Virus record (IMG/VR): IMGVR_UViG_3300009177_000068
Coordinates: 1-39,560 of that record
Direction: 5' to 3' (one strand)
DNA length: 39,560 bases
Origin: a virus
Shown: positions 1,559 to 18,296 of the stretch, in pieces
Position numbering within the stretch: position 1 is the stretch's first letter
How the letters are laid out: every line of letters begins with the position of its first letter
Made by a program: the position numbers and the translations under genes
The notes under the pieces: generated by a model
The model's database searches: none
What the model was told of the DNA's origin: nothing
What the model saw: only the letters and a program-made list of their open reading frames with translations

Positions 1559-2058
1559 TAACGGAGCTTGATGATGTCGTCGTAGTGCTTGGGTTCCAAC
1601 TGGTTCACGAGCCCAAGCGCCACCGCTTCATCTCGCCAAAGATACTCTTCGGTCTTTCCGAAGAATTTTTCGATCATCGCATCGCCCCAGCCAAAATCTT
1701 GGCGGAAACGCTGGTAGGAAATCTGCGTCTGCAAATCGTCGCTCTTGCCGTCGAGCGAAGCCTCGTGAAGCATGAAGCGCGCGGTGGGTGAAGCGGTGCG
1801 AATCGTGCCGCCCGCATAGATCAAACAGCCAGCCGACATGCAATCGCTGAAGGCGTGGGTGTCGAAGTCAAACTCTTTGATGAAGTTCGAAAGCATCAGC
1901 CCCCAATACGAATTCCCACCCTTGATATTCTCAAGGCCAAGGGTGACGTGGTCGCCGTTCTTTTTGTATTCAGAAAGCTCATCAATGATGCGCTCGCAGT
2001 CCCGCGCCTGAAGCGTGTTGAAGCTGCTGTCTTGGACGAGACGAAGGAGAATCCGCAT
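1555..2058 (-). CDS. ClpP-like / crotonase-fold serine protease
   Basis: 167 aa. The sequence CMSAGCLIYAGGTIRTASP followed by TARFMLHEAS resembles the ClpP active-site region: Ser75 in place of the nucleophile and His98 23 residues later (25 in E. coli ClpP), with the A-x-G...P-x-A-R-x-M-x-H framework. The C-terminal DEAVALGLVNQ matches the EA..yGLVD strand of ClpP and other crotonase-fold enzymes. The catalytic Asp is not obvious in the KTEEYLWRDEA stretch. It may be a head-maturation or cytoplasmic protease, or an inactive relative. The ATG at 2058 is preceded by TAAATAGGAGT, which holds both a late-promoter-like box (5 nt away) and a GGAG too close to be an ideal Shine-Dalgarno site. Confidence 0.65.
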   Translation of the reverse strand: MRILLRLVQDSSFNTLQARDCERIIDELSEYKKNGDHVTLGLENIKGGNSYWGLMLSNFIKEFDFDTHAFSDCMSAGCLIYAGGTIRTASPTARFMLHEASLDGKSDDLQTQISYQRFRQDFGWGDAMIEKFFGKTEEYLWRDEAVALGLVNQLEPKHYDDIIKLRY

Positions 2059-2063
2059 ACTCC

Positions 2064-2071
2064 TATTTACC
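2064..2071 (-). promoter_or_regulatory. T4-type late promoter box (GGTAAATA), 5 nt before ATG 2058
   Basis: On the reverse strand TAAATA is followed by five bases and then ATG. By analogy with T4 late promoters (box at -13 to -6) transcription would begin at the A of the ATG. Confidence 0.5.
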
Positions 2072-2091
2072 GATTTTATGGTGCGGCCCTC

Positions 2092-2099
2092 AATAAATA
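2092..2099 (+). promoter_or_regulatory. T4-type late promoter box (AATAAATA), 5 nt before GTG 2105
   Basis: AATAAATA, then ACGAC, then an in-frame GTG. The predicted late transcript would start on the GTG, supporting this start over the internal ATG at 2153. Confidence 0.55.
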
Positions 2100-2104
2100 A
2101 CGAC

Positions 2105-2323
2105 GTGAGCGGCTACCATCCTTACCGTGTTTCTATCGGCCGTGAGCACATCATGACCAACGGTTTTCTGAGTGATGAAGGGAAGGCGTGGTTGGACGAA
2201 AACGGCGCCGGAAAAGACTGGTATGTGATCGACGGTCCCTATATCGCCCGCCACCATTCGCAAAAATGCGCGTGGTTCAAAGATCAAAGCTTGGCGACGC
2301 TCTTTCGACTGTTTTTCGGGTAA
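2105..2323 (+). CDS. Small protein of the C-terminal F-x-D...FK/RLxW family
   Basis: 72 aa from GTG 2105, or 56 aa from ATG 2153 (start MTNGFLSDEGKAWLDENG). GTG is preferred because it lies exactly five bases after a TAAATA box; no Shine-Dalgarno sequence is visible for either start. The end, WFKDQSLATLFRLFFG, resembles the C-termini of at least five other small proteins in this window. Function unknown. Its TAA stop forms part of the next late box (TAAATA at 2321). Confidence 0.65.
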   Translation: MSGYHPYRVSIGREHIMTNGFLSDEGKAWLDENGAGKDWYVIDGPYIARHHSQKCAWFKDQSLATLFRLFFG

Positions 2324-2326
2324 ATA
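2319..2326 (+). promoter_or_regulatory. T4-type late promoter box (GGTAAATA), 4 nt before ATG 2331
   Basis: The TAA stop of the preceding gene is embedded in the box; TCCG then separates it from ATGCGC. No Shine-Dalgarno site lies before the ATG. Confidence 0.5.
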
Positions 2327-2330
2327 TCCG

Positions 2331-2735
2331 ATGCGCGATCTCATCAACCTCGTCGAATCTGCCCAGTATGAGCCAGACCAAAAATATTTCGGGCTCATTC
2401 CGGCAATCAAATATCTGCCGGTGTCCGCTATCCATCGACAGGAGATGGATCACATGCCTGAAGTGATGTCGGTCAGCGATGAGGTGGCCCGCAATATGGA
2501 TTTCTCCGAACCGGTCGAAGTCACCGCATTTCGTTTCGCACACAATGCTCGGGATCGTCAGGAAGACGATGATGCGCTACCCGAAGTCACACTTCGTGAT
2601 GGCCATCATCGCACGGCTGCGGCAATCCAGACGGGACGCCCCTATCTGCCGGTCGAGTGTCGCGCCATCAACGCCAAGGGCTACAAGCTGAACGCGCTGA
2701 TCGCCCTCTCCAAGCAGATCGAAGCGAGGCTATAA
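2331..2735 (+). CDS. ParB/sulfiredoxin-like domain protein with capsid-targeting-like N-terminus
   Basis: 134 aa. The N-terminus MRDLINLVESAQ matches the targeting-like motif shared with four other proteins here and contains an L-V-E cleavage-type site. Residues about 26-110 resemble the ParB-like nuclease/sulfiredoxin fold: IKYLPVSAIHRQE, then PVEVTAFRF, then RDGHHRTAAA at 89-98 and GRPYLPVE, the arrangement seen around the GxHR box of that superfamily. In that fold the box binds nucleotide or phosphate; DNA or nucleotide binding is plausible but unproven. ATG 2331 lies 4 nt after a TAAATA box. If packaged, it could enter the host with the DNA (inference). Confidence 0.65.
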   Translation: MRDLINLVESAQYEPDQKYFGLIPAIKYLPVSAIHRQEMDHMPEVMSVSDEVARNMDFSEPVEVTAFRFAHNARDRQEDDDALPEVTLRDGHHRTAAAIQTGRPYLPVECRAINAKGYKLNALIALSKQIEARL

Positions 2736-2738
2736 ATA
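2731..2738 (+). promoter_or_regulatory. Perfect T4 late promoter box TATAAATA, 4 nt before ATG 2743
   Basis: Exact TATAAATA overlapping the TAA stop of the upstream gene. CGTG follows, then ATGCGC. A start at +1 after five bases would fall on the T of the ATG, or on the A with a one-base shift. Confidence 0.65.
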
Positions 2739-2742
2739 CGTG

Positions 2743-3003
2743 ATGCGCGAATTCATCAACATCGTCACCGAGAGCAACGACCCGAAGGCACTGAAGGCGC
2801 GGCTGCGCAAGATCGAGTCTGATCGTCGGTATCTGATTACTGCCATGTGCACGAATGCGTGTGGCCGCGCCGCTGCGGCTCTTGCGGAAGGCGACACTGA
2901 ACGCCACGCGAAGATCATGGCGAATGTCGCCACCTACGTGGAGCAGGCTGCCGCGCTGGAAAAGGAAGCGACCGAAGTCGCCAACCAACTAAACGGCGTC
3001 TGA
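2743..3003 (+). CDS. Small helical protein with capsid-targeting-like N-terminus
   Basis: 86 aa, MREFINIVTESN... A GTG at 2740 would add one residue. The first twelve residues match the shared motif, including V-T-E. The rest is predicted mostly helical (KALKARLRKIESDR..., AAALEKEATEVANQL) with an Ala-rich middle; no known domain is recognised. Candidate internal head protein by its N-terminus only. Its 3' end overlaps the convergent reverse gene (2989-3165) by 15 bp. Confidence 0.65.
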   Translation: MREFINIVTESNDPKALKARLRKIESDRRYLITAMCTNACGRAAAALAEGDTERHAKIMANVATYVEQAAALEKEATEVANQLNGV

Positions 3004-3165
3004 CTTCCGCAGCCGTTCGATCTCGTCCGCAGCTTCCTCAAGAAGGTCCGCGATCCGGTCCCGCTGACCATCCTGCACCGATTTGCGGGTGGGGATTTGG
3101 CGCCTGATCTCGGCGCGCTTCCGCAGCCGATAGACCAGATCGTTTTCGTCAATTTCGCTCATCAT
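2989..3165 (-). CDS. Small charged helical protein, last gene of the PLP-enzyme operon
   Basis: 58 aa (MMSEIDENDLVYRLRKRAEI... to ...EIERLRKSDAV). Start codons ATG 3165 and 3162 are in tandem; the first overlaps the upstream TGA as ATGA. The sequence has a high share of Arg/Glu/Asp and a coiled-coil-like C-terminal half (RDRIADLLEEAADEIERLRK). Function not recognised. Confidence 0.65.
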   Translation of the reverse strand: MMSEIDENDLVYRLRKRAEIRRQIPTRKSVQDGQRDRIADLLEEAADEIERLRKSDAV

Positions 3166-3431
3166 TCCCCCTCGATGTCAGGCACGAGTTTGTCGGCCGC
3201 AATCTGGTCGAAGTCAAATTCCTTCGCCTCTCCCAGCCCGTCCAATAGCGTGACGTTGGTGAGCACCGCTTGGTGATACTCACTGTGATTGCCGTCACCC
3301 CATGCGATCCAGATCATGGGCTTGCGTTCGAGTCGCACGATGGTCCCGAGCATCACATCGGTCGTGCTGGTCACCGATACGGTTTGCCTAACCCGCAGGT
3401 CTTCCCACGGCACCTTGGATAGCTGGCTCAC
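3162..3431 (-). CDS. Hypothetical protein, fourth gene of the PLP-enzyme operon
   Basis: 89 aa from GTG 3431, one base after the TAA of the upstream gene; the frame stays open further upstream but that part is out-of-frame shadow of the preceding gene. The first half looks like a small beta-barrel (VRQTVSVTSTTDVMLGTIVRLERKPMIWIAWG split into strands). The second half is acidic (EFDFDQIAADKLVPDIEGE). Function unknown. Confidence 0.6.
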   Translation of the reverse strand: MSQLSKVPWEDLRVRQTVSVTSTTDVMLGTIVRLERKPMIWIAWGDGNHSEYHQAVLTNVTLLDGLGEAKEFDFDQIAADKLVPDIEGE

Positions 3432-3432
3432 C

Positions 3433-3918
3433 TTATTCGGCGTTCCAGAGGAAGATGCTCTCTTCCGGGTAGCTCTGGGTCGCGTCGTCCCAGTTTCGCT
3501 TCGCGAAGAACTCGATGACCGTAATCTTGCCGTCCACCTCGTTGGTGATGGCATGGATATAGTGGGCGAACAGGTCGAAGCGGCGGATGATGACATCTCC
3601 GCTCTTGCGACGATAGTCGCGGGTCCAAGCGGATTTCTTGAACGGCGGCCGGGGCCAATGACTGTAGTGCTTCTTCGTATAGGCCCAGAACGCCGCCTCG
3701 TCCGCGTGGAGCTTCACGCCCGTGGACACATAGTCCTTTCGACCCTGCTCGACCACGATGAAACCGCCCTGCCGATAGCTGCGGTCGGGGAGCGCCACCT
3801 CCTTGTAGTCGGTGTCGTCCTTGTGTCGCGCCCAGATGGCATCGGTCGCCCAAGTTGCTCCGTCGGCGTTGATGAGTTCGAGAATCGCCGCGACGTGATC
3901 TGCTGATTTAAGGGTCAT
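3433..3918 (-). CDS. Hypothetical protein, third gene of the PLP-enzyme operon
   Basis: 161 aa from ATG 3918, which overlaps the TGA of the HExxH gene as ATGA, so translation is probably coupled. N-terminal helix (SADHVAAILELINADGATWA), then an alpha/beta region rich in Tyr, Trp and basic residues (KKHYSHWPRPPFKKSAWTRD) and a C-terminal set of hydrophobic strands (KITVIEFFAKRNW). I do not recognise a family. Confidence 0.65.
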   Translation of the reverse strand: MTLKSADHVAAILELINADGATWATDAIWARHKDDTDYKEVALPDRSYRQGGFIVVEQGRKDYVSTGVKLHADEAAFWAYTKKHYSHWPRPPFKKSAWTRDYRRKSGDVIIRRFDLFAHYIHAITNEVDGKITVIEFFAKRNWDDATQSYPEESIFLWNAE

Positions 3919-4748
3919 GCCTTCGCCATCGCCTTCGCATATTTTTCCTTGTTCGCCCAGTAGAAGGTGGCGAACAGTTCGGCCTCTTGGCGGAACGGCA
4001 CGTTGTCCACGGGGTCCTTCGCGGCCTCCGTGGTGATCCAGTTGAGATGGTGCGCGAGGGCTTCCTCGCGGCTCACGGCCGTCGCCATCTGGAAGTTCGA
4101 CATGTGGTTCTCGACTTCTACGTAGCGATCCGACCATGTGATCGAGTAGATGGCGTTCTGCTCAGCGAACCGGCGAATCCATTGCTCGGTGATGTCCATC
4201 AGGTGTTCGGGCTTGCTGACCATCACGTCGCGGCGGATCGACCGAATGGTCTCCACGGCCACGTCCTTGTTGGTCGCCCACAGCGCCTTCATGTCCACGT
4301 CGTCCAAGAACCGATCCGCATAGATCGGGTGCGGGAACGAGTTCGCGCGAAGTTCCGGCATCTCGAAATAGATGGTGATCTCGGACATGCTGCTCGCTTC
4401 GAGTTCGTTGCGTTGCATTTTGTCGTCGAATGCCGCCTTCCCGATGTTCGGGACGTAGGGCATGTGCGCCGAGTGATAGAACTCGTGCAGAAGATAGAGA
4501 TCGTGGATCACCGGGTTGGTGTAGTCGTCGCGGAGCATGATAACGCCCCACCACGTCGAGAAGTGGGCGCGCTCAAGATGGTCGTTCGACATCTCGGCGA
4601 AGATGCGCGGCAGCCACGCGAACCGCTCGACGGCCCGCCAGATGAAACCGCCCGACTGGTGCGAATCACGGAACATGTCCGTCTTCCACTGGCTCAGGAC
4701 GAATTCGTGAATGGCGTCCTTGCTGGCGATGGCACGCACGTTCTTCAT
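3915..4748 (-). CDS. HExxH-containing protein (gluzincin-like metallopeptidase or diiron protein)
   Basis: 277 aa from ATG 4748, overlapping the TGA of the aminotransferase-fold gene (ATGA). Residues 88-92 are HEFYH in the context LYLLHEFYHSAH, and 23 residues later comes NELEASSMSE (114-123) followed by FEMP. HExxH plus a downstream E in an NE..AS context is the pattern of gluzincin metallopeptidases and resembles the ImmA/IrrE layout. ExxH also occurs in ferritin-like or haem-oxygenase-like diiron enzymes, and the largely helical, aromatic-rich sequence would fit those too. Its pairing with a PLP enzyme favours a biosynthetic role, but neither reading is proven. No signal peptide. Confidence 0.55.
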   Translation of the reverse strand: MKNVRAIASKDAIHEFVLSQWKTDMFRDSHQSGGFIWRAVERFAWLPRIFAEMSNDHLERAHFSTWWGVIMLRDDYTNPVIHDLYLLHEFYHSAHMPYVPNIGKAAFDDKMQRNELEASSMSEITIYFEMPELRANSFPHPIYADRFLDDVDMKALWATNKDVAVETIRSIRRDVMVSKPEHLMDITEQWIRRFAEQNAIYSITWSDRYVEVENHMSNFQMATAVSREEALAHHLNWITTEAAKDPVDNVPFRQEAELFATFYWANKEKYAKAMAKA

Positions 4749-5794
4749 TGGATCACCCCGCTGGTTCCGATCCGTTCGGCGAGGCCCGGCGTCAGGCACA
4801 GGCGCACCTTGCCCGCCCGCGTCAGATAGTCGGCCAGATCGTTGGGAAACTCGGTGACGCCATTCGCGAGCATGAACACGTCGGACGGTTCGAGCAGATG
4901 GATTTTGGTTTCCTTGGAAACCCGCACCGTCATGGCGCGCTGGTAGGAACCATAGGTCTCCGGCATGTAGAAGACGCCGTGACGCTGCATCATGGTGGTG
5001 CCGAGACGCAGCCCGGTCAGGCCCTTGAACCATTTGTTGCCGAACAGGCCCAAGTCCTCTTCGCGGCAGAACACGCCGCCGATGCGGTCGTAGTAGAAGC
5101 CGAAGGGCTTCGACAGGCTGAAGACCACGTTGCGGATCGACGGCTGGTTCAGATTGAACTTTTCGACGATCCTGCTCGACGGCACCGCGCCGACGTAGGT
5201 CATGTCGGCCACCACGGTGTTGTGCGGCATCTTCGAGATGAACTCGTTGAACTCGGGCCAGACGTTCCCGTCGATGGCTGACGGCTGACTGATGAAGAAC
5301 ATTTCGGTGCGCGGCATGGACGCGGCGATGGTCTCCCACTTGTCGCGGGGCCATTCTCGCACGATGCACCCGGCGGCTTCCGCCATGGCCTTGTAGCCTT
5401 CGTATTCGCCCTCGAAGAAATTGACGCAGCCGGTCAGGCCGCTCAGGCGGATGCGGGCCGCGTAGGCGAAGATCAGGTGACGAAGGGGCTCGCTGGCCCC
5501 GGCGGTCGGATAGAAGAACGGGAAGAGGGTGCGATCCAGTTCGACCACCGGCTTCGACCACTCGTGCCACACCTCGAAGAACTCTTCGTGGTAGCGATCC
5601 TGCTTTGCGGTCCATGCATCGCGGAATTGTTCGAGGTAGGCGTTGCGCTCGGCTGAGCCCAGATCGCCGAACACCTCGGCTTTCACGGCTTCAGTTTCCG
5701 GGGTGACCAGCGCGTAGACCGTCTTGCTGACGCCCATCGCGAGCAGCCGCGCATTGAGGGCCACGTTCGGGTTGAATTGCGTCGTGGTCGCCAT
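4745..5794 (-). CDS. PLP-dependent aminotransferase-fold (type I) enzyme
   Basis: 349 aa, first gene of a five-gene reverse operon, with an excellent Shine-Dalgarno sequence (AAGGAGG) before ATG 5794. Fold type I marks: YPTAGASEPLRH (about 95-106, cofactor phosphate loop region), FFEGEYEGY, VVADMTYVGA with Asp197 (PLP ring N contact), and FSLSKPFGFYYDRIGG with Lys229 as the Schiff-base lysine and Arg237. Length is near the usual 350-420 aa but short at the C-terminal domain. The substrate cannot be read; transamination, decarboxylation or group transfer are all possible. Followed by an ATGA-coupled HExxH protein. Confidence 0.7.
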   Translation of the reverse strand: MATTTQFNPNVALNARLLAMGVSKTVYALVTPETEAVKAEVFGDLGSAERNAYLEQFRDAWTAKQDRYHEEFFEVWHEWSKPVVELDRTLFPFFYPTAGASEPLRHLIFAYAARIRLSGLTGCVNFFEGEYEGYKAMAEAAGCIVREWPRDKWETIAASMPRTEMFFISQPSAIDGNVWPEFNEFISKMPHNTVVADMTYVGAVPSSRIVEKFNLNQPSIRNVVFSLSKPFGFYYDRIGGVFCREEDLGLFGNKWFKGLTGLRLGTTMMQRHGVFYMPETYGSYQRAMTVRVSKETKIHLLEPSDVFMLANGVTEFPNDLADYLTRAGKVRLCLTPGLAERIGTSGVIQ

Positions 5795-5817
5795 GGTCCC
5801 TCCTTGATCGAGAAGTC

Positions 5818-5845
5818 ATTCTCGTCTCGTTTGCGAAAATGTCAA
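5818..5845 (-). promoter_or_regulatory. Sigma-70-like promoter for the PLP-enzyme operon
   Basis: Reverse strand: TTGACA (5845-5840), 16-bp spacer, GAGAAT (5823-5818), about 24 bp upstream of the ATG at 5794. The -35 box is perfect, the -10 box weak. Confidence 0.5.
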
Positions 5846-5882
5846 CAGAAAGTAGAAAACAGAATTCGCCGACCGCTTATTG

Positions 5883-5910
5883 TTGACGCCCTTCGAACCC
5901 GTGGTAGTTT
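5883..5910 (+). promoter_or_regulatory. Sigma-70-like promoter for the glycosyltransferase cassette
   Basis: TTGACG (5883-5888), 16-bp spacer, TAGTTT (5905-5910), then AAGGAG before ATG 5945. It is divergent from the reverse promoter at 5818-5845; the 150-bp intergenic region is AT-richer than its surroundings. Confidence 0.6.
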
Positions 5911-5944
5911 TTGTTCACATTCGAGTTGAAGGAGCGACCCACAA

Positions 5945-6997
5945 ATGAAAATCGGCGTGTTGATCCCGGCCTATAATGAAGAGTGCGTAATCGCCGACAC
6001 CATCGGCGCGCTCATCGTGGCTGGCTATTCGCCGACCGACATTTATGTGGTCAACGACCGCTCCACCGACCGCACGGAAGAGATCGCTCTTTCGCTCGGC
6101 GTGCACGTCATCACGGTCCCGGTCAACGGCGGCAAGGCCAAGGCGCAGGAATATGCGCTGAAGAACTATGGCCTCACCGATCTTTACGACTGGATCGTCT
6201 TCCTCGACGGCGACACCAAGGTTGAGCCCAATTTCGGCCGCGTGTTCGAGTTCGCCGCCATCGACAATCCCGACGTTTCGCTTTTCGTCGGCCAAGTCGC
6301 CTCGGCCAACAACCGCCATATCTTCTCGGCGTATCGGGCGTTCGAATACGCCTACGCGCAGAACATCATCAAAAAGGGTCAGGACAACTTCAGCGTCGTC
6401 TACGTCTCGCCCGGTTGCGCGTCCATGTATAAGTCCAGCGTGCTGGCCCAACTGCACATCGACTCCAACACGCTGGCCGAAGACATGGACCTGACTCTTC
6501 AGGTTCATCGGCTGGGCGGCAAAGTGAAATACGTTCACGATGCGGTAGTCGTGACGCAGGACCCGAATTCCCTCAAGGATTATGTCAAGCAATCCATGCG
6601 CTGGAAGCGCGGATTCTGGCAAACGATCCTCAAGCACCGGACGTTCTCGTTCACGCGCAAGCAAGCGGTGGACTGGTATATGATCTACCTGACGCTGGAA
6701 TCTCTCATCTTCAACAAAATCTTCCTGTTGGGGGCGGCGTGGATTCTGTCGGGTCCGATGGTGATTGTGTGGGGGCTGTTGTTCGACCTGCTCATCTTTT
6801 CGGCAATCGCTTTCTACTCATTTACCAAAACAAAGCGGGTTGACACTCTCACACATATACCTGTATTTTACCTGCTCGCTTACGTCGGCCTCTATGTCCA
6901 CCTCGTGAGTTTTGTAGAGATCATCGTGCTCCGCAAACACATCTTGGCGTGGAACAAGGTCGAACGGTATCAATTCGACGATCTAGTAACCGCGTAA
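5945..6997 (+). CDS. Processive membrane glycosyltransferase, family GT2
   Basis: 350 aa. GT-A domain at about 1-230: LIPAYNEE at 6-13, NDRSTD with Asp38, FLDGDTKVEPN with DGD at 88-90, VSPGCASMY near 154-162, AEDMDLT with ED at 179-180, and QSMRW at 216-220, the QxxRW motif of processive beta-glycosyltransferases (cellulose, chitin, hyaluronan and poly-GlcNAc synthases). Two or more membrane helices follow (about 245-292 and 303-330). It should polymerise or add sugars from UDP-sugars on the inner face of the cytoplasmic membrane. Shine-Dalgarno AAGGAG lies close upstream of ATG 5945. Bases about 6700-6990 are less GC-rich. It is first in a cassette with exported proteins and an L,D-transpeptidase-like protein, suggesting envelope modification. 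Confidence 0.85.
   Translation: MKIGVLIPAYNEECVIADTIGALIVAGYSPTDIYVVNDRSTDRTEEIALSLGVHVITVPVNGGKAKAQEYALKNYGLTDLYDWIVFLDGDTKVEPNFGRVFEFAAIDNPDVSLFVGQVASANNRHIFSAYRAFEYAYAQNIIKKGQDNFSVVYVSPGCASMYKSSVLAQLHIDSNTLAEDMDLTLQVHRLGGKVKYVHDAVVVTQDPNSLKDYVKQSMRWKRGFWQTILKHRTFSFTRKQAVDWYMIYLTLESLIFNKIFLLGAAWILSGPMVIVWGLLFDLLIFSAIAFYSFTKTKRVDTLTHIPVFYLLAYVGLYVHLVSFVEIIVLRKHILAWNKVERYQFDDLVTA
6840..6867 (+). promoter_or_regulatory. Possible internal promoter within the glycosyltransferase gene
   Basis: TTGACA (6840-6845), 16-bp spacer, TGTATT (6862-6867), same spacing as other promoters here. It could give extra transcription of the exported protein gene at 7032. Chance occurrence in an AT-richer stretch is possible. 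Confidence 0.3.
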
Positions 6998-7031
6998 AGT
7001 TTTGTCAGAAAACAACAGAAGGACTACACAC

Positions 7032-7484: not shown

Positions 7485-7523
7485 GGTCCCCGCCAACTAG
7501 CAGCCACAGAAAGGAACACGCAC

Positions 7524-7742: not shown

Positions 7743-7748
7743 GGCAAC

Positions 7749-8102: not shown

Positions 8103-9059
8103 CTACTTCGAAGAGACCTTGAACATTTTACCCCACAGGTCTTGCCGCAGGGGTTTCTTGGTTCCGAGTTCGAAGATGCCAGTCAATCGAAGTGGTGAAT
8201 CCGGGGCGAACACCACTTCATGCTCTTCGGGGAAAATGTAGTTCTGCGCTACGGTTTCTTCGATATTCACCTGACCTGACACTTCACCAACGAACAAGAC
8301 GTTCGGTTGCGCCATCAGGTCTGCGGTGTTGATGTCGGGGCGCAAGGCCCAGAAGAAACCTAGCGAGGCGCCGGGCGTCAATCGGGTGAGATCACTCTCG
8401 TCCAACTGCATGACGCGGTAGACGGTGAGCGCAGGCTGCTTAGCTAATTTTGTTGCGCTGTCGATCTCGATGTTCAGAAGTTCGTGCCAGATGCCGTCGT
8501 CATCATCGTCCTCGGGGAACGCGTTGAGCCCATCCTGTTCGTCGATCAACTGAATGATCCGGGGGATGTTGACTTCGATGAACGGAGCTTCCTCGTTCAG
8601 GTCATCGCCGCCGTAGGTCACGAACATCGCATCCTTGCCGGTGAACAGTTGGATGCCGTCGATGGTCGGATCGAGCGCGCGGACGAACTTGCCGATGTCG
8701 TCGAAGTCAACCACAAACTCGCGGTTGCTCGGATAGCCCAGCAAGCGTTGCGCGCCTTGCAGCCATATTTGGTAATCGTTCACTCCGTCGAAGCGCAGAG
8801 CGTTGTCGGGAAGATAGGCGCGCGGGATTTCGATGACGCGACCATAGGCGGCTGCGTCCTTCTTGTTGGCAGTGAAGTAGAGTCCCAGCCCATAGGTCGC
8901 CATGCCATGACCCGAATGTTCACTGACCCCGCGCCACAGGCGCGCGCTCGCCGGAAGCTTTACCCCATGCTTGCAGCGATGGTCGGAGAGGATTTGGGCG
9001 GCAAGCTCGGGAGGAATTTGTCTCTGAGCTTCAGCCAAAAGATTGATGAAATGACGCAC
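8103..9059 (-). CDS. ADP-ribosyltransferase-like protein with capsid-targeting-like N-terminus
   Basis: 318 aa from GTG 9059, 4 nt after a TAAATA box. N-terminus MRHFINLLAEAQ fits the T4 internal-protein targeting pattern with an L-A-E site. Two regions look like mono-ADP-ribosyltransferases. Region 1 (about 38-125) has LWRG with Arg43, then YGLGLYFTANKKDAAAYG (56-73), like the (H/Y)G..GLYFT....A..Y pattern. Region 2 (about 210-300) has VYRVMQ with Arg215, PGASLGFFWAL at the S-T-S position, and FPEEHEVVF with E279-H-E281 as an ExE-type motif. An acidic run (DDDDD near 184-188) separates them. T4 Alt is a packaged ADP-ribosyltransferase that modifies host RNA polymerase; a comparable injected role is inferred. 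Confidence 0.65.
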   Translation of the reverse strand: MRHFINLLAEAQRQIPPELAAQILSDHRCKHGVKLPASARLWRGVSEHSGHGMATYGLGLYFTANKKDAAAYGRVIEIPRAYLPDNALRFDGVNDYQIWLQGAQRLLGYPSNREFVVDFDDIGKFVRALDPTIDGIQLFTGKDAMFVTYGGDDLNEEAPFIEVNIPRIIQLIDEQDGLNAFPEDDDDDGIWHELLNIEIDSATKLAKQPALTVYRVMQLDESDLTRLTPGASLGFFWALRPDINTADLMAQPNVLFVGEVSGQVNIEETVAQNYIFPEEHEVVFAPDSPLRLTGIFELGTKKPLRQDLWGKMFKVSSK

Positions 9060-9063
9060 CCAT

Positions 9064-9071
9064 TATTTAGG
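9064..9071 (-). promoter_or_regulatory. T4-type late promoter box (CCTAAATA), 4 nt before GTG 9059
   Basis: Reverse strand; the TAA stop of the deoxyribosyltransferase-like gene is part of the box. ATGG follows, then GTGCGTCAT. Confidence 0.5.
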
Positions 9072-9828: not shown

Positions 9829-10212
9829 CTACTGTTTGAGCTTCGGCACTATGTATCGGTCAATGATCGCGTCGGCTTCAGCCAATTTGTGTGCGATCTG
9901 TGTGGGGCTGCTTTCCATCGTGGTCAAAAGTTCATCAGCATCCCACGGCTGAACGTCAGACGTGAAGATGTCCACTTGTTTCTGTGGGCCGAGAATGTCG
10001 ATCTCCCGGCCGTCGGGCATCACGCAATATGCATGGGCCACATAGTCACCATGCTCCGCATCGCGATGCATTTGCGCCATGATCGGCCAGCCGAAGCGAC
10101 GGTTCATCGCGACGGCCAACCACATACAGTCGCCGTGGGAGTATTGCTCCACAATGTGTTCAGGCACACCCCGAAGCTCTGCTTCTAGAATGGCCATCCA
10201 GTGCCGCATCAT
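9829..10212 (-). CDS. Papain-like cysteine protease candidate with capsid-targeting-like N-terminus
   Basis: 127 aa from ATG 10212 or 126 aa from the adjacent ATG 10209 (MRHWMAILEAEL). The frame is open further upstream, but that part is shadow of the divergent gene. A TAAATA box ends 5 nt before ATG 10212. Numbered from 10209, HGDCMWLAVAMNRRFG places Cys28 at the start of a helix, then VAHAYCVMPDGREIDILG gives His59 and Asp71. C-helix, then H, then D is the order of papain-like and transglutaminase-like folds; protease activity is an inference. The N-terminus includes I-L-E, usable by a T4-type prohead protease. Confidence 0.6.
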   Translation of the reverse strand: MMRHWMAILEAELRGVPEHIVEQYSHGDCMWLAVAMNRRFGWPIMAQMHRDAEHGDYVAHAYCVMPDGREIDILGPQKQVDIFTSDVQPWDADELLTTMESSPTQIAHKLAEADAIIDRYIVPKLKQ

Positions 10213-10217: not shown

Positions 10218-10225
10218 TATTTATG
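10218..10225 (-). promoter_or_regulatory. T4-type late promoter box (CATAAATA), 5 nt before ATG 10212
   Basis: Reverse strand CATAAATAC then TCTC and tandem ATGATG. No Shine-Dalgarno sequence. Confidence 0.55.
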
Positions 10226-10600: not shown

Positions 10601-10654
10601 CCAGTTCAGAACTCGTGAGACACTCAGCTTAAGAGTTTCACAGGAGACCTGCAC

Positions 10655-11136: not shown

Positions 11137-11543
11137 TGGTCGCCATCGCTGCCAAAGACGTAGCCGCCATCTACAACCACGTCTGGGATCACCGGGGTCA
11201 AACTACCACGGTCGCCGGGTTGACGCTCGTTGCGACGCGCCCGAATGCGTTCCGGCTGGTCCGCCAGAAGGGACCATTTCTGGATGAAATTTGGCGGCTG
11301 GAATTCGTCCTCAAGAACGATCACTGGGTCGGCCCGACTGGCGCGATGCGCGAGGGTGAAATCCTGTTCCGTGACTATCACCCGAACACGCACGGGGGTG
11401 GCTGGGGCGCCGTGGACTTCAAGGACTACCAGCGCTGCGGCAAATTCCAGATCAAGAAGGTGAGCGGCGATCTGACTCAGTTCCAAAAGGATTGGGTGAT
11501 GCTGCTCATGTTCCAGCACGAGTTCACGGAAGCCGCCGACTAG
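11136..11543 (+). CDS. Hypothetical protein
   Basis: 135 aa from ATG 11136, overlapping the previous TGA. Mixed alpha/beta sequence with LVATRPNAFRLVRQKGP and a glycine-rich THGGGWGAVDFKDYQ stretch; helical, hydrophobic C-terminus (WVMLLMFQHEF). Not recognised. Its stop overlaps the convergent reverse gene by 4 bp, leaving no room for a terminator. Confidence 0.65.
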   Translation: MVAIAAKDVAAIYNHVWDHRGQTTTVAGLTLVATRPNAFRLVRQKGPFLDEIWRLEFVLKNDHWVGPTGAMREGEILFRDYHPNTHGGGWGAVDFKDYQRCGKFQIKKVSGDLTQFQKDWVMLLMFQHEFTEAAD

Positions 11544-12001
11544 ACTTTCAGCTTGCCCCGCTTGAGGCGAGTGCCTTCGAGTTCAAATAGGCAGAGCACC
11601 GCTTCCCTATCGGTGGCGATCATTCCGTATTCCCAGTCATACTTGTTCCACGGGATGGTGATGATGTGCGTCACCCGATCCTCTTCCCATTCGCTATAGC
11701 CTATGAGCTTGCCCGACGCCCGGAGACGGCCCTCCAAGGCATAGCTCATCTCGAACACGGCGTGATCGAGCGGGAAAGAGGTGTGGACGGAATACAAAAT
11801 CTGATTGAGGGAGCCATTAGCGTGATGGCTGAGCACCCCAAACATGATTCCGGCCGAGCCGTTCCCGCCGCTGTCGAGTGGACTGCAATGACCCGAAACA
11901 CGGATCGGTTCATCTGTTTCTAGGCACAGGCGCTCGGCCTCTGCGATGGCGGCTTCGAATTCTTCGAGGGTCGCGGTGGAGATGCTGGTCGTATAAAGCA
12001 T
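11540..12001 (-). CDS. Hypothetical protein behind a late box
   Basis: 153 aa from ATG 12001 (MLYTTSISTATLEEFEAAIA...). This start is chosen because TAAATA ends exactly 4 nt upstream; the frame is open to 12061 but the longer version would contain the promoter. Alpha/beta sequence with a Gly/Ser loop (PLDSGGNGSAG) and a charged, strand-like C-terminus ending KRGKLKV. Family not recognised. Confidence 0.65.
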   Translation of the reverse strand: MLYTTSISTATLEEFEAAIAEAERLCLETDEPIRVSGHCSPLDSGGNGSAGIMFGVLSHHANGSLNQILYSVHTSFPLDHAVFEMSYALEGRLRASGKLIGYSEWEEDRVTHIITIPWNKYDWEYGMIATDREAVLCLFELEGTRLKRGKLKV

Positions 12002-12005
12002 CTTA

Positions 12006-12013
12006 TATTTATG
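12006..12013 (-). promoter_or_regulatory. T4-type late promoter box (CATAAATA), 4 nt before ATG 12001
   Basis: Reverse strand CATAAATA-TAAG-ATG; no Shine-Dalgarno sequence in between. Confidence 0.55.
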
Positions 12014-12050
12014 GTTGACCAATTCCACGAATTCATAGAAAGCTCCACCG

Positions 12051-12251: not shown

Positions 12252-12252
12252 C

Positions 12253-14211
12253 TCACTGCAAGTAGAACGAGTGTGACTTCGTCGGGTGACCGACGCTGGT
12301 GACGAACTTGTTCGGAGTGGCCCACGACGGTGTGGCCGCCGACGGGTTCACATACTGCGTGCAGCGCTTGTTGGCCTTGATCGGCGCCACGGCGCTGCTG
12401 CACGGGAAGGTGCCAGCCAGCAGCCTCGACGCGATGTCGTGACAGTGCGCCCATTCCTTGCTGCCCTGCGACGCCTTGATCTTCTCGATGCCACGCTTCT
12501 CGCCAGAGGCGAAGAGCGCTTTGCTCACCGTGAGATGGCCGCCGCTGCGGCTTGCGCCGCCGCCCACGTCGAGTGAGCGACCGTTGGTGGACCAGAAATA
12601 CGAGAACGCCGCATAGGCCAACACATACTTCTTGATGCCCGACCAATCGTCATTCCTGACATTGCCGCCAAAACCGGTGGCGACGCGGTTGATGACCACC
12701 TGACCAACCGCCGATAGCATGTCGTCGCCAAGGCCGCCTGCTTCGGTGAGCAGGCAAACCGTCAGCCACGTCACATCATCATCGGTGATATCCTGCAACG
12801 CGGCTTCGTTCGGAACCACCGACGAATTCGTCACAGAGTTCGCGTCGTCCGTGGACGCAAATTCGTCCGAGCCCTTCAGGTCAGGCTTGTTCGAAGCGTC
12901 GGTGCTGCTGTTCGCGTTGGTGGACGCACCGTTCTTCGGGTGGTGCTGGTAAGGCTCGTGCGTCGGCATACGACGCGTGATCGTCTTGCGGGTGCTCTGA
13001 TCGTAGCAGGGAGCCTCGCCATTGACCTCGGGTAGATCGCGCGGCTTCTCCACCTTGGCGGCCGGAGGATTGGCGGCCGGAGCACCGGTCGAGGAATTGT
13101 CGTGGATGACGGAGGCCGAGCGAATGTTTGCACCAGCCGACGCCGACGTGATGTCGCCACCGGCGCCCAGACGCAGAGTGCCCACGGCGCCGAGAATGAT
13201 GTTGCCGCCTGCGCGGGTGGACGACGTGCCACCGAAGTCGAGCACGAGATCACCGTTGCCCGCAATGTTGGTGTGGTGTGCGCTCTGGATGGTGAGGTTG
13301 CCGCCCGCGCGTAGATTCAGGTTGCCATCGGCCTCGATGTTGAGCGAGCCGTCCGCATGGAGGTTCAGCGAACCTTCCGACCGCAGGCTGACCGAGCCCT
13401 TGCTGTAAACGTCAACGCCCTTGTCGGAGATTTCGACCCACGAGTTGCCGTCCTTCGAGTTGATGTAGACGAAACCGTTGGTCTCGTTGATGAGGACTTG
13501 CGCACCGCTGCGCGTGCGCATCCGAATGAATTCATTGAGCGGATTGTCATCGACATAGACTTGGTTGCCACGCGGGGTGGACCAGCCGTAGACCTTCGAC
13601 GGAGCTTCCCGGCGGGCGCTCGACGTGGACGGCCCGCGCTCGGGGTCGCTGAACAATCCCTGCTGCGACAGACCATTCGCCAGCGGCGTGTAGGCGGCGC
13701 GCTTGGGGTTGTCCGGGTTCTCCTTGGACCACTTGTTGTATTCCGCCACCGGGGGCAGGCTCGAACAATAGTTGCCGTCCTCTGTGGGCGTGCCCACGGC
13801 GATGCCGGGGACCATGTGGTTCATGTTCTGCTGGTAAATGCAGGCGAACCAGAAGCCCAACGCGGTGTCGCCATTGGCGAAACAGACGAGCACTTGGTTT
13901 TCGAGATCGGGCGGGTTCATCCAGAAGCCATAGGACTGCTGGGTGCCGTCGAGGGCCTTCGAATTTTCGACTAGGGCATTGGGGTTGGTCACCCCGGCGA
14001 ACGGGCTCGCATAGCTGACGGTGAACCAGCTTTTCGGATCGTTCGGGTTGCCGCCGATCTCGGGAATCCAGACGGCCAGACGACCCATGCGCTGACCATC
14101 GTCGTTGCGCTTGACGACGCCGACATAGATGTTGCTGTCCCGCACGCGACCCATGTGGGAGTCGCGACGGTAGCCATTGGGGACACGAGTGACGTTGTAG
14201 TTCGGCTTCAT
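12253..14211 (-). CDS. 5: Baseplate central spike gp5 with C-terminal cell-wall hydrolase domain
   Basis: 652 aa, last gene of the baseplate operon, ATGA-coupled to the hub gene. The N-terminal OB-fold region (about 25-165: VGVVKRNDDGQRMGRLAVWIPE, KSWFTVSYASPFAG) matches T4 gp5. Residues about 260-340 contain eight-residue repeats (GSVSLRSE, GSLNLHAD, GSLNIEAD, GNLNLRAG), the triple beta-helix spike. From about 477 to the end, VTWLTVCLLTEAGGLGDDML and AVGQVVINRV match SleB/CwlJ-type hydrolases with the Glu of LTEAGG as likely catalyst. T4 gp5 instead has a lysozyme domain between OB and helix, so the enzyme here differs in both family and position. It should puncture the outer membrane and cut peptidoglycan during entry. 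Confidence 0.85.
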   Translation of the reverse strand: MKPNYNVTRVPNGYRRDSHMGRVRDSNIYVGVVKRNDDGQRMGRLAVWIPEIGGNPNDPKSWFTVSYASPFAGVTNPNALVENSKALDGTQQSYGFWMNPPDLENQVLVCFANGDTALGFWFACIYQQNMNHMVPGIAVGTPTEDGNYCSSLPPVAEYNKWSKENPDNPKRAAYTPLANGLSQQGLFSDPERGPSTSSARREAPSKVYGWSTPRGNQVYVDDNPLNEFIRMRTRSGAQVLINETNGFVYINSKDGNSWVEISDKGVDVYSKGSVSLRSEGSLNLHADGSLNIEADGNLNLRAGGNLTIQSAHHTNIAGNGDLVLDFGGTSSTRAGGNIILGAVGTLRLGAGGDITSASAGANIRSASVIHDNSSTGAPAANPPAAKVEKPRDLPEVNGEAPCYDQSTRKTITRRMPTHEPYQHHPKNGASTNANSSTDASNKPDLKGSDEFASTDDANSVTNSSVVPNEAALQDITDDDVTWLTVCLLTEAGGLGDDMLSAVGQVVINRVATGFGGNVRNDDWSGIKKYVLAYAAFSYFWSTNGRSLDVGGGASRSGGHLTVSKALFASGEKRGIEKIKASQGSKEWAHCHDIASRLLAGTFPCSSAVAPIKANKRCTQYVNPSAATPSWATPNKFVTSVGHPTKSHSFYLQ

Positions 14212-16655
14212 GATTGTCCTGACGACCCCGCGCCGTCGGCAGGCTGGGCCGAAGTCTTGTTGTCTCCGCTGCTCTTGATCGTCGTGATGAGTTCGAGCTT
14301 GATCGCTTCGAGCGTTTGCTTGAATTCGCCGTTCACGAAGTTGCTCTTGACGTTGGTCACCCGGTAGAGACCGTTGAACACGTCATCATCTCGGATGATC
14401 GGCGAACCATCCTGCGCGTTGATGCGGCTCGGGAAGCGCAAGATCAGCGCGAATGTCGAGTCACCCTCCGCGAAATTCGGAAGCGGATCATCGGGGTTGT
14501 GCTTCTGACCACCGGTCAACAGAGCCCGGCGCTCGACGTGCGAGTAACCGATCCAGTAGGGATCGCCGCGAATTTCCAAATTGATCGACGCGAGCGACGC
14601 GGTGACCGGCTCGTAAAGCTGGTTCATGACCGCGCCCGCCAAACTGGCGCCACGATGCCATTGGCCCAAGAATCCGGCCCCGGCGGTGTTGGTCGCCTCG
14701 TCGTGAGCCTGCACGTAGGTCATCTGATCCGGCGTGATATCCGGGCGAGCATCCTCGGCGTAAATGTTGACCGGACCTTGGGCCTCGATCTGTTCGCGCT
14801 GAAGACGTTGGCGCGTAAGGCTTTGGCTCCGGCGCGTGTTTAGCTGACCAGCAATTTCACCCTTGCGGCGGTTCGCGGCTTCGATGACCGCATTAGCTTG
14901 AGCTTTCTGATCCGGCGGTGCAGTCTCGGAGGACACGACGCCTTTTGCCGCGTCGATGTCGGTGTTGAACTGCTGCAACTTCGTCCGAAGCTGGCTGTCC
15001 GAAAGCGGCTGGCCGGGGCCTGCGGTCGTTGACGGGAAATCGCTCCCGGTCATCGCGGAATTGGAGATCAGAGCCGGGTTGCGTTTTTCGTGGTCCGAGA
15101 CTTCGTTGATGCCCGCGCGCCAGCCGGTGAGTTTGGGCATGACGGCCGCGAACGCAAAGTTGTAGTCGAGATCGAAGCGAATGACCTCGGTGTTCATGCC
15201 GGTGAAGCGGTGCTCGTAGCGCTTGCGGAGATAGCCACGCTTGCGAAGCTCGTTGGCGATCCGCACGGGAATGCCGGGATCGTCCTTGATCTTCGTGTAT
15301 TGCTCGGGCGCGATATTGACGGTGTATGAACGATAGCCCCACACGTAGTAGGTGATCTCTTTCATATACTGGCCGGTGATGTCGTCGTAGCCCGTGACTT
15401 TCACGTCGGCTTCGACCATCGGCACGATGGGGACGCGATAATCCTTCTTGTTGTAGGTGATCGACTCACCGCCACCGGCGTCTTCCGTGTCTTGCGCGGA
15501 GTTCGTATCCAGCATCATCTTCTGCGCTTCTTCGGTGTGGCAGTAGAGGAACATGATTACGTCGTTGATCGTCGTCCCGGCCGGAATCTGGGCGTGAGGC
15601 GTCTTCCCGCTGCCCGCGTCGAGCGACAGGTTTCGAATGGGGTCGTATTCGCCCTGCGCCAGCTTGAACGCACCCGCGTCTCGTGTGTCGTCCTGAAGCG
15701 GTAGAACCTTGATCTTGAACTTGTAGATTTCGCCGAGATAGCGTTCCTTCCAAGTCTGGGTGAGCTTGTCCGCGAAATCGTCGCAGAACGATTGAATGGT
15801 GCCGCCGCTGACGCTCAGCACGTCGGGCACCCGGCCGCAGGTTTCGTCTTCAAAGGCGAGCGACGAATAGGGACGGCACGTCAGCTTGTAGTTGGCGCCG
15901 TTCTCATTCATGTTGACTTCCATATTGGCGATGGCGACTTGCCACACCCAGTGGCCGCCATTCTTCAGGTCCATCCCCGCCAACGGGTCGGTGTTGATGG
16001 TCCCGTCCTCGTTGTAGCCAAGGAAAGTCAGTTCGAGGTAATACCAGACCTTGCCGAAGTTCTGGATGCCAAGCTGGATGCCAGCATTCATCATCGACTC
16101 AACGAGGCTCGAACCCAACGGCTCGGTCAGGTTGATGTTGATCTGGGACATGTAGGAGCTACGGTTGCGCCAGCCCGGCCCAATCGTGTGGTCGATCTCC
16201 ACGCTCGTGATGTTGAAGCCCGCCGTCACACCGCTTTCGGCGATGGTGACGTTCGGAATGCTCTTGAGGGTGTTGTAGAGCGACGTGATGTCGTCCGAGC
16301 CCGCACCGGTGACTAGCTCGTGCTCGGTCGTCATGAACAGGCGGAAATGATACGACGGCTGCCGCGTGCTGCTCAGCGCATTCAGATCGTAGTTGTCGTC
16401 GTTCAGAATTTCGAGCAGCGCTTTGTTGGTGGCGGCGCCGACCGTCGTGTTCCCCGTAGCAGTGGAGGTGATGCCGTTCGCAGTCTGCTGCTGTCCGCTG
16501 GGCGCGATTTCTCCCGTGGACGGAAGAGTGTCCATCAGCGAATAGGAAGGTGTGGTTCCACCGGCGACTGGGACGTTGTTGATGCGGCTGGGGGCGGGAG
16601 TATCGTCAGGGATCAACGGTCGGCTGTTTGCTTGCTTTCCACTGTCTATTGTCAT
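14208..16655 (-). CDS. Baseplate hub protein (gp27-like role)
   Basis: 815 aa from ATG 16655, ATGA-coupled to gp53; an upstream in-frame start would add only shadow residues. The N-terminal 90 residues are Ser/Thr/Pro-rich and probably disordered. The middle resembles contractile-tail hub proteins (SYHFRLFMTTEHELVTGAG, ISQININLTEPLG-type strands, VWYYLELTFLGYNEDG), and the end DVFNGLYRVTNVKSNFVNGEF is the typical hub LysM-like/barrel ending. A coiled, Gln/Arg-rich segment near 590-640 is inserted. It is larger than T4 gp27 (391 aa), so it may combine hub and adapter functions. Sits beneath the tube and holds the gp5 spike. Confidence 0.7.
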   Translation of the reverse strand: MTIDSGKQANSRPLIPDDTPAPSRINNVPVAGGTTPSYSLMDTLPSTGEIAPSGQQQTANGITSTATGNTTVGAATNKALLEILNDDNYDLNALSSTRQPSYHFRLFMTTEHELVTGAGSDDITSLYNTLKSIPNVTIAESGVTAGFNITSVEIDHTIGPGWRNRSSYMSQININLTEPLGSSLVESMMNAGIQLGIQNFGKVWYYLELTFLGYNEDGTINTDPLAGMDLKNGGHWVWQVAIANMEVNMNENGANYKLTCRPYSSLAFEDETCGRVPDVLSVSGGTIQSFCDDFADKLTQTWKERYLGEIYKFKIKVLPLQDDTRDAGAFKLAQGEYDPIRNLSLDAGSGKTPHAQIPAGTTINDVIMFLYCHTEEAQKMMLDTNSAQDTEDAGGGESITYNKKDYRVPIVPMVEADVKVTGYDDITGQYMKEITYYVWGYRSYTVNIAPEQYTKIKDDPGIPVRIANELRKRGYLRKRYEHRFTGMNTEVIRFDLDYNFAFAAVMPKLTGWRAGINEVSDHEKRNPALISNSAMTGSDFPSTTAGPGQPLSDSQLRTKLQQFNTDIDAAKGVVSSETAPPDQKAQANAVIEAANRRKGEIAGQLNTRRSQSLTRQRLQREQIEAQGPVNIYAEDARPDITPDQMTYVQAHDEATNTAGAGFLGQWHRGASLAGAVMNQLYEPVTASLASINLEIRGDPYWIGYSHVERRALLTGGQKHNPDDPLPNFAEGDSTFALILRFPSRINAQDGSPIIRDDDVFNGLYRVTNVKSNFVNGEFKQTLEAIKLELITTIKSSGDNKTSAQPADGAGSSGQS

Positions 16656-16957
16656 GATCCGACGGCTTTCTTGATTGTAGCCAGTGACGGGATGATGATC
16701 GTCTTGCCGATCTCCAAGTCCCAAATCGGATCACTGATGAGATTGCGGTTGCGCACCGCGAACACCCACCAGTAAGCGGGTGTGCCATATTGGTCATTGC
16801 TCAGCACGTCTGGGCGATGCTGGTAGCGCTTGCTGATCGTCAACGTCTTGTCATCGCCAGCCGGAGAAATCGGCCGGTGGACGTAGTTCGAAATATACCA
16901 ACTCGTCTGCGGAGTGGCGGCATAGGGCGAAGATGCGGGGTAGTTGATCCGGCTCAT
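16652..16957 (-). CDS. 53: Baseplate wedge protein gp53
   Basis: 101 aa. YQHRPDVLSNDQYGTPAYWW followed by VFAVRNRN and DPIWDLEIGKTIIIPS is the conserved gp53 signature, which ends in a LysM-like segment. T4 gp53 is 196 aa, so this is a short version keeping the core. A wedge subunit that joins wedges around the hub. ATG 16957 follows the upstream stop after 1 bp; its TGA overlaps the hub ATG. Confidence 0.85.
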   Translation of the reverse strand: MSRINYPASSPYAATPQTSWYISNYVHRPISPAGDDKTLTISKRYQHRPDVLSNDQYGTPAYWWVFAVRNRNLISDPIWDLEIGKTIIIPSLATIKKAVGS

Positions 16958-16958
16958 A

Positions 16959-17753
16959 TCAAATCCACCCCGTCGTTCCGCTGGTCATGAGTTCGCCGGT
17001 GCGGAATTTGTCCAAGCTGAACTCCTTGCGCATCTGCGTCGGTGTCTGCTGGACCTGAAGCTCGATCTGGACTTGGAACAGCGAAGGTAGCTTCGCCATG
17101 CCGTTTGGCGTGTTGACCGTGACCATGTTCATGGTCTTGTCGAGCGTGTAGCTGTGAGACTTCACGATGACCGGCAGGTTGTTGAACATGTAGTCGCCGT
17201 AGCCCTCGAAGATGAGGACCGGCGGCGGCAGGCCAGCCTTACCGGCGGCCTTGTCGATCTCGCCGAAATACATCTTCGAGACCGTGCGCAAGAAATGCAG
17301 GCAGGCCAGCGTGTAACGACCTTCGCGTTGGTTCTGCACGGTGAAATCGGCAGTAACGCTCAAGCCAACGCTCGGCGTCCGCGCATAGGTCGCAATGTCA
17401 CCGTTGGTGTGGACGAGTTCGGTCGAGTTGTAGTTGACGGTCTGGCTGACGGAGATCGTCGGCGTATACGGGAACATCATCCCGTCCGTTTCGTAGAGGA
17501 TGCTCAACAGGTTCGTGTCAACCTGCTCGCCATAGACGCTGAGCATCTGAGCATCACCGCGCATCGCGCGTAGGCGAACGCGCGTATCCTTCGACGGATT
17601 GACTAGGGTCTCTTCACCGTCGGACGTTACGTCCGTGCCTTGGCCCGCCGGGTTGTAGTCGGGGGAGACAATGTTCCTTGGGTTGGTGGGAGTAGCAACG
17701 ACCTGCGCGCCACCTCGTCCGAGACTATTTTCTAGCTGAATAGATGTTGCCAT
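16959..17753 (-). CDS. Baseplate / tail-tube initiator protein (gp48/gp54-like)
   Basis: 264 aa, starting at ATG 17753, which shares a base with the TAA of the upstream gene. The central FPYTPTISVSQTVNYNSTEL and LPVIVKSHSYTLDKTMNMVT followed by FQVQIELQVQQTP match the tube-like domain of T4-type baseplate-tube junction proteins. N-terminal 60 residues are low in structure. Position between gp53 and the hub in a baseplate operon agrees. Whether it equals gp48 or gp54 cannot be told from sequence reading. Confidence 0.7.
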   Translation of the reverse strand: MATSIQLENSLGRGGAQVVATPTNPRNIVSPDYNPAGQGTDVTSDGEETLVNPSKDTRVRLRAMRGDAQMLSVYGEQVDTNLLSILYETDGMMFPYTPTISVSQTVNYNSTELVHTNGDIATYARTPSVGLSVTADFTVQNQREGRYTLACLHFLRTVSKMYFGEIDKAAGKAGLPPPVLIFEGYGDYMFNNLPVIVKSHSYTLDKTMNMVTVNTPNGMAKLPSLFQVQIELQVQQTPTQMRKEFSLDKFRTGELMTSGTTGWI

Positions 17754-18283
17754 TAGACTCCCATACCGACACGAACGGCTTCGTAGAGTTCTCGTGTCAG
17801 TGTTTCGTCGGTCGTCGCAGACAGATCGCGGAACGCGTTGAAGTTGCCGTCCGCCGCAGCGGCGCGAGCGCTCGATGCGCTTGCATCCTCGGCCTTCCGG
17901 GTGATCGCTTTCACTTCAGCGTGCTTCAAACCCAACACTTCTGATCCCTCGTAAGCGGCCAAAAGTTTGGAGAACGCATCTCGGCGGTCTTCGCCGACGA
18001 TCATCACGCCATCGTCCACACCATCGGCCGCCATATCGAGACCGGCCTCGAACAGCGTCTTCGCCAGTCGAACTTCCACGTCAGGGAAGAGCTTCCGGGC
18101 AAAGGCAAGTTTCTGTTCGGGAGTGAGCGGATTGCGTTCGTCGTCGTGGGTTTGGGACAAATACAGGCGAGCAACGGCGCCCTCGCGTTGAGCTTCTTCA
18201 CGAAGCTTTTCAACAACACGACGGTGGCCGCTGGTCGGCGGGTTCATCCGCCCAAAAGCGAAGACTGCTTTCACGTTCTTCAT
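17753..18283 (-). CDS. Nucleotidyltransferase (HxGH/TxGH family)
   Basis: 176 aa. VFAFGRMNPPTSGHRRVVEKL at 7-27 carries the T-x-G-H nucleotide-binding motif after the first beta strand, as in NMN/pantetheine-phosphate adenylyltransferases and cytidylyltransferases. LSQTHDDERNPLTPEQKLAF and VMIVGEDRRDAF give further family-like elements. Substrate unknown. The C-terminal 50 residues are Ala/Ser-rich and may be a separate tail. First gene of the baseplate operon, with ATG 18283 located 5 nt after a TAAATA box and no Shine-Dalgarno site. Confidence 0.75.
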   Translation of the reverse strand: MKNVKAVFAFGRMNPPTSGHRRVVEKLREEAQREGAVARLYLSQTHDDERNPLTPEQKLAFARKLFPDVEVRLAKTLFEAGLDMAADGVDDGVMIVGEDRRDAFSKLLAAYEGSEVLGLKHAEVKAITRKAEDASASSARAAAADGNFNAFRDLSATTDETLTRELYEAVRVGMGV

Positions 18284-18288
18284 GTCCG

Positions 18289-18296
18289 TATTTATG
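18289..18296 (-). promoter_or_regulatory. T4-type late promoter box (CATAAATA), 5 nt before ATG 18283
   Basis: Reverse strand CATAAATAC-GGAC-ATG. It heads the whole reverse baseplate operon (18283 to 12253). Confidence 0.65.

Follow-up and report, generated by a model that had tools for sequence, protein, structure and literature searches.

Start-proximal TAAATA boxes and predicted leaderless late mRNAs in a lineage of jumbo T4-superfamily phages

TAAATA boxes and their genes in the viral stretch

The stretch of DNA studied here, called the window in the following, comprises positions 1 to 39,560 of the IMG/VR virus record IMGVR_UViG_3300009177_000068, 39,560 bases in all. It contains twelve copies of TAAATA, the core of T4-type late promoters, where 1.69 were expected and none of 100 shuffled sequences reached twelve. 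Behind eight of these boxes an ATG or GTG start codon follows after exactly 4 or 5 bases, spacings designated N4 and N5 below. ATG alone stood at offset 4-5 after TAAATA six times in the window against an expectation of 0.4 (p ~10^-5.8), which ranked TAAATA first among all 4096 hexamers. A Shine-Dalgarno-like string is absent at seven of the eight close starts; at 2058- the spacer contains a GGAG one base from the ATG, a position that precedes the predicted transcription start (+1). Six close starts are ATG and two are GTG, and those of the relatives are mostly ATG with about 11 GTG. An earlier note, made from the window sequence, had described twelve boxes, eight of them at N4 or N5, seven close starts without a Shine-Dalgarno site, two GTG starts and four boxes with ordinary leaders, all of which was borne out. 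Its box coordinates were correct except for 36055 and 38673, which were two bases off; these boxes begin at 36057+ and 38675+.

The first box on the minus strand (2064..2069) stands N5 before ATG 2058 of a predicted leaderless gene for a ClpP/head-maturation-protease-like protein of 167 aa (1555..2058-; PHROG 1827, E 7e-6; Pfam CLP_protease, E 0.002, below the cut-off). Its divergent partner (2094..2099+) stands N5 before GTG 2105 of a predicted leaderless gene of 72 aa (2105..2323+), the start of which was set from spacing alone and for which a relative search found none. Both divergent promoters and both start codons lie inside 48 bases (2058-2105), and a similar pair occurs at 18916-/18943+ in the cultured SAR11 phage HTVC008M. 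Two N4 boxes follow on the plus strand at 2321..2326 and, in the full form TATAAATA, at 2733..2738; the TAA of each is also the stop codon of the preceding gene. They precede the predicted leaderless genes 2331..2735+ (134 aa, MRDLINLVESA..., weak match to PHROG 21912) and 2743..3003+ (86 aa, MREFINIVTES...), both with capsid-targeting-like N-termini. A third such N-terminus, VRHFINLLAEA..., is encoded by a predicted leaderless gene of 318 aa (8103..9059-) that starts with GTG 9059, N4 behind the box 9064..9069-. The relative of this protein in the viral contig G002 matches residues 14-160 (48%), and no match was found in Pfam or PDB.

Three further close boxes lie on the minus strand. The box 10218..10223 stands N5 before ATG 10212 of a predicted leaderless gene of 127 aa (9829..10212-, MMRHWMAILEAE...) with weak relatives in the contigs G010 and G002, of which the G002 one is N4 behind a box. 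The box 12006..12011 stands N4 before ATG 12001 of a predicted leaderless gene of 153 aa (11540..12001-), the start again being set from spacing alone. The box 18289..18294 stands N5 before ATG 18283 of a predicted leaderless nucleotidyl/cytidylyltransferase gene (17753..18283-, 176 aa; PHROG 3041, E 4e-36), whose start is fixed because its orthologues begin at the same residue. An N-terminus of the type MR-x-x-I-N-I-V-x-E is shared by the products of 2331+, 2743+ and 9059-, and less clearly by those of 2058- and 10212-.

The remaining four boxes, with 5' ends at 32242-, 36023-, 36057+ and 38675+, carry leaders. Spacings of 24 bases (32237..32242-) to ATG 32212 of a RusA-like gene, 30 bases (36018..36023-) to ATG 35987 of a baseplate hub-like gene and 25 bases (36057..36062+) to ATG 36088 of an 859-aa virion structural protein were found. 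The box 38675..38680+ is separated by 31 bases with a GGAG from ATG 38712 of a gene that exceeds the window, and its orthologue in the contig G001 has the same distance of 31.

The window also encodes a gp55-type late sigma factor (18498..19361+; PHROG 12791, E 3e-81; PHROG 234, E 3e-23), relatives of which were found in 358 phage records. The closest relatives are the long viral contigs G001 (149 kb), G002 (561 kb), G003 (578 kb) and G005 (608 kb), the gp55 of G001 being 90% identical to that of the window. Among named phages the relatives are Sinorhizobium phage Phosso and Agrobacterium phage Atu_ph07, followed by PA5oct and 121Q-like phages. These long-contig and named-phage relatives identify the window as part of a jumbo phage of the T4 superfamily, with relatives of 500-600 kb. 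A megablast comparison of its 20-32 kb region with named phages gave no match, and searches of PDB, Rfam, tRNA and PADLOC gave no useful result. A phage tyrosyl-tRNA synthetase is encoded at 29149-30438+ (PHROG 9270, E 6e-122).

Spacing of boxes and start codons across related phages

A genome-wide peak at 4-5 nt, the test that the earlier note had named beforehand, was found strongly in five relatives (G001, G002, G003, G005 and G010; about 1.5 Mb in total, 149-400 kb per relative, with G003 later extended to 460 kb). In each of them TAAATA came top among the 4096 hexamers ranked by ATG at offset 4-5, with 22 of 58 boxes in G010 (1.9 expected), 44 of 125 in G002 (4.8), 33 of 118 in G003 (3.4), 57 of 156 in G005 (5.3) and 9 of 43 in G001 (1.4). 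No N4-5 excess was seen for permuted hexamers, including other TAA-containing ones; ATAAAT gave, through its overlap with the TAAATA box, an echo of the peak shifted outward by one base. Distances from each box to the first in-frame start, pooled over the window and the five relatives, were distributed bimodally: one start at 2 bases, two at 3, 50 at 4, 69 at 5, and 13, 6 and 4 at 6, 7 and 8 bases, then six in all at 9-17 and 96 at 18-35 bases. A Shine-Dalgarno-like string occurred in none of 119 leaders at 4-5 bases, in 23 of 41 at 18-25 and in 33 of 55 at 26-35. Over all genes, its frequency was 22-33% in the window clade versus 46-53% in T4, Atu_ph07 and Phosso.

In the window clade about a third to well over half of the boxes have a start at 4-5 bases, and 12 of 33 do in G014; the share does not exceed a few percent in G009, G011, Phosso, Atu_ph07, T4 and PA5oct. 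The class is present as well in G018, G038 and G028, where close sites numbered 48, 72 and 41 against 0, 7 and 5 for the control in pattern counts. In marine AT-rich contigs carrying phrog_11591, 65 starts lay at 5 bases, 33 at 6-8 and one at 9-14, with a Shine-Dalgarno string in 0 of 100 cases at 3-8 bases and in 59 of 75 at 15-35. HTVC008M showed 12 starts at 4-5 bases, four at 6-8, none at 9-17 and 14 at 18-38. Its deposited coding sequences for tape measure (16007-), DNA end protector (18916-), head completion (18943+), baseplate wedge (31132+) and tail completion (75830+) proteins begin exactly at N5 starts. Phage Syn9 had no starts at 3-8 bases after a box. HTVC008M and the marine T4-like contigs resemble the window clade in having an N5 class without Shine-Dalgarno beside a leadered class with it; they differ in that the N4 class is almost absent, and HTVC008M is a distant relative with a genome of 147 kb. 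The close class is a lineage-wide class of late genes, not a local feature of the window, and it occurs also in a cultured SAR11 phage.

An alphaproteobacterial host was considered as a sufficient cause and rejected: Phosso and Atu_ph07 are phages of alphaproteobacteria and are leadered, so that host class alone fails as an explanation. Both resemble the window lineage in jumbo size, TAAATA boxes and gene order around gp55 and the nucleotidyltransferase, but their late genes are leadered, mostly with Shine-Dalgarno, and starts at 4-5 bases follow only 1 of 69 and 1 of 89 boxes, respectively.

Orthologous genes were found to change class between phages. In seven phages the virion protein phrog_11591 (350-360 aa) starts with the same methionine; its gene stands N4 or N5 behind a box without Shine-Dalgarno in G010, G002, G003 and G005, and at 19-27 bases with Shine-Dalgarno in PA5oct, G009 and Phosso. 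Orthologues of the 18283- nucleotidyltransferase gene have N5 in G001, G002, G016 and G017 and 3 bases in G005, and they are leadered with 10-17 bases in G009, G011 and Phosso. Since other late genes remain leadered in the same phages, the close class is selective.

Other start-proximal motifs were recorded in two of these genomes. In G002 (loci L101-L120), TGAAAT stands at N4-5 before ATG 69 times against 22.6 expected and AAGTTGA at N7-8 before starts, possibly another promoter class. Strong motifs of Atu_ph07 (loci L186-L205), TCGAAAC at N17-18 and GTATAAC at N31-32 before starts, probably mark an early or middle promoter class.

Position of +1 and competing explanations

T4 late promoters, which are served by gp55, gp33 and gp45, consist of TATAAATA at -13 to -6, so that +1 falls at offset 5 after the box. 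The boxes described here resemble them in several respects. They are box-only promoters: a -35 element was found at shuffled level only, and no other upstream position was conserved in the close or the leadered class. They precede virion genes, such as those for the structural protein behind 36057+, the baseplate hub, phrog_11591 and the baseplate wedge, and a gp55 homologue is encoded. Furthermore, A is favoured at offset 5 in leadered boxes of the clade (53 of 113), as in Atu_ph07 (42 of 59) and T4 (14 of 23). The TAAATA core is preceded by A or C, with the same preference in close and leadered boxes. In T4, by contrast, the distance from box to start is mostly about 12-30 bases and a Shine-Dalgarno is usual, and none of 46 boxes has a start at 4-8 bases.

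The earlier note had placed +1 on the A (N5) or the T (N4) of the start codon. The N5 part agrees with the relatives: the base before ATG was C or T in 84 of 97 N5 genes, the usual pyrimidine(-1)/A(+1) initiator pattern that would be expected if the A of ATG were +1. The N4 part did not hold as worded: with the T4 geometry the transcript would begin at the T and lack the A of ATG, and initiation would therefore have to shift one base upstream.

The best-supported reading, to which we give a probability of roughly 0.83, is that the TAAATA boxes are T4-type late promoters that would fire leaderless late mRNAs. It is supported directly by the box enrichment, the 4-5 nt peak in a bimodal distribution, the missing Shine-Dalgarno, the initiator-like bases of N5 genes, the box-only architecture, the conservation among relatives, the encoded gp55 and the orthologues that are leadered in other phages. 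From these we infer that the boxes fire late, that +1 lies at or next to the start codon and that the leaderless transcripts are translated. Several points weigh against this reading. In 45 of 68 N4 genes (clade loci L083-L160) a G, often GG, precedes the ATG, which may mark a different +1, and the fit of the N4 class to the T4 geometry is inexact. Two of the eight close starts in the window are GTG, a start codon that is usually poor on leaderless mRNA. Gene starts in the relatives were assigned by our own script. Finally, the box doubles as the stop codon of the preceding gene in 16 of 121 clade cases, so that read-through mRNA and translational coupling could contribute.

This last point, to which the window boxes 2321 and 2733 also belong, favours an alternative in which the true 5' ends lie upstream, from another promoter or by read-through, translation is coupled or initiates without Shine-Dalgarno on an unstructured leader, and the spacing is a by-product of tight packing around a TAA stop. 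However, 105 of the 121 boxes supply no stop codon, the other TAA-containing permutations of the hexamer lack the N4-5 excess, and for divergent genes such as 2058-/2105+ there is no cistron upstream. This alternative would moreover leave the gap at 9-17 bases and the pyrimidine(-1)/A(+1) bias unexplained, and we consider it improbable. Even less credence is given to the idea that TAAATA next to ATG acts as an AU-rich translation-initiation element or as the -10 box of a host sigma-70 promoter. AU-rich upstream sequence can aid initiation, but the exact hexamer is required here rather than general A+T richness, and the same box with the same preceding C/A preference stands 18-35 bases before late structural genes. 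A sigma-70 promoter would favour one or two bases more spacing from its -10 box, and -35 sequences were not above shuffled level.

The peak could also consist of copies of one promoter and capsid-targeting cassette spread by duplication, not by selection for leaderlessness. A capsid-targeting-like N-terminus like that of T4 is indeed encoded by 31% of the close genes (4-8 bases), whereas the share is 2.7% among leadered late genes and 4.6% over all genes (Fisher p 1e-9). The 121 close genes, however, fall into 84 protein clusters and so are not one copied cassette; among their products are a baseplate wedge protein, a lipase-like protein and proteins of tail and head. Orthologous genes outside any cassette show the switch between leadered and close placement, and N5 also dominates in HTVC008M and the marine contigs. 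This explanation was already disfavoured and is the least probable of those considered.

Leaderless late genes and injected proteins

According to the T4-type late promoter reading, host RNA polymerase with the phage gp55-type sigma factor encoded in the window would read box-only promoters that lack a -35 element. Of the late promoters, a third to one half, or more, would lie 4-5 bases before the start codon, so that transcription would begin on or within one base of AUG or GTG and yield leaderless late mRNA, translated through recognition of the 5'-terminal start codon without Shine-Dalgarno. Most other late promoters would retain leaders of 18-35 bases, usually with Shine-Dalgarno. The predicted mRNAs resemble the leaderless mRNAs of lambda cI and Mycobacterium in that the 5' end falls on the start codon or within a base of it and Shine-Dalgarno is lacking; they differ in forming a whole class of T4-type late structural and cargo genes that is set by promoter placement.

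The accessible text of a review names lambda cI as the only phage example of leaderless mRNA (PMC9031893). NATAAATA late promoters are described in cyanophage publications, which in their accessible parts do not mention leaderless mRNA. Phage AR9 was considered as a precedent for leaderless late genes and rejected, as its untranslated regions measure 26-491 nt. No report of leaderless T4-type late genes was found in a literature search outside which most subscription papers lay.

Besides tail, baseplate and head genes, the leaderless set would contain an excess of genes for capsid-targeted, injected proteins. The T4 capsid targeting sequence, which directs internal proteins and Alt, is MKTYQEFIAE. 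The N-termini found here share with it a short form ending in a hydrophobic pair and E, and differ in reading MR-x(3-5)-[IL]-[ILF]-x-E, a putative signal. A gp21-type prohead protease (PF03420), as in T4, was present in all ten relatives searched; the ClpP/head-maturation-protease-like core at 1555-2058- occurs in this same lineage. Two G003 proteins with capsid-targeting-like N-termini contain clear ART-PolyVal domains, which recall Alt. These ADP-ribosyltransferase domains (L123:4585-5250 and L126:6998-7699) are also encoded behind predicted leaderless promoters, and cargo genes of this sort seem to be numerous in the jumbo clade. Given the N-termini, the protease and these domains, many close genes probably encode injected cargo.

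Initiation factor IF3 and ribosomal protein bS21 were examined as possible switches between the classes. High IF3 disfavours leaderless mRNA, according to the same review (PMC9031893). Full-length IF3 genes were found in G009, G011, Phosso and Atu_ph07 (L237:4068-4595, L260:3862-4398, L225:2308-2829 and L186:244-747, respectively), and IF3 relatives in about 80 viral contigs. A phage IF3 as strict switch, initially seen only in leadered jumbo phages, was refuted by G028, which has IF3 and gp55 together with many close sites. The remaining trend, a close class in 1 of 10 phages with IF3 versus 7 of 13 without, is a count that ignores kinship. The presence of bS21 did not separate close from leadered phages.

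It is a tentative and rather doubtful extension that leaderless placement forms a regulatory layer, with promoter position setting both the timing and the mode of ribosome recruitment. Injected effectors and selected virion parts would then be made from a separate class of leaderless mRNAs with translation favoured late in infection, for example through an altered balance of initiation factors or a phage bS21.

In T4, whose late transcription is a textbook case, the late mRNAs have leaders. In several T4-superfamily lineages, a cultured SAR11 phage among them, the same sigma system appears to produce messages without leaders from a large share of the late genes. The spacing predicts start codons that gene finders can miss, such as GTG 2105 and ATG 12001, and the leaderless layout would make very compact divergent promoters possible, as in the 48-base pair 2058-/2105+. 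Leaderless translation would be linked to injected effectors, and its behaviour under heavy load becomes testable in lytic infection.

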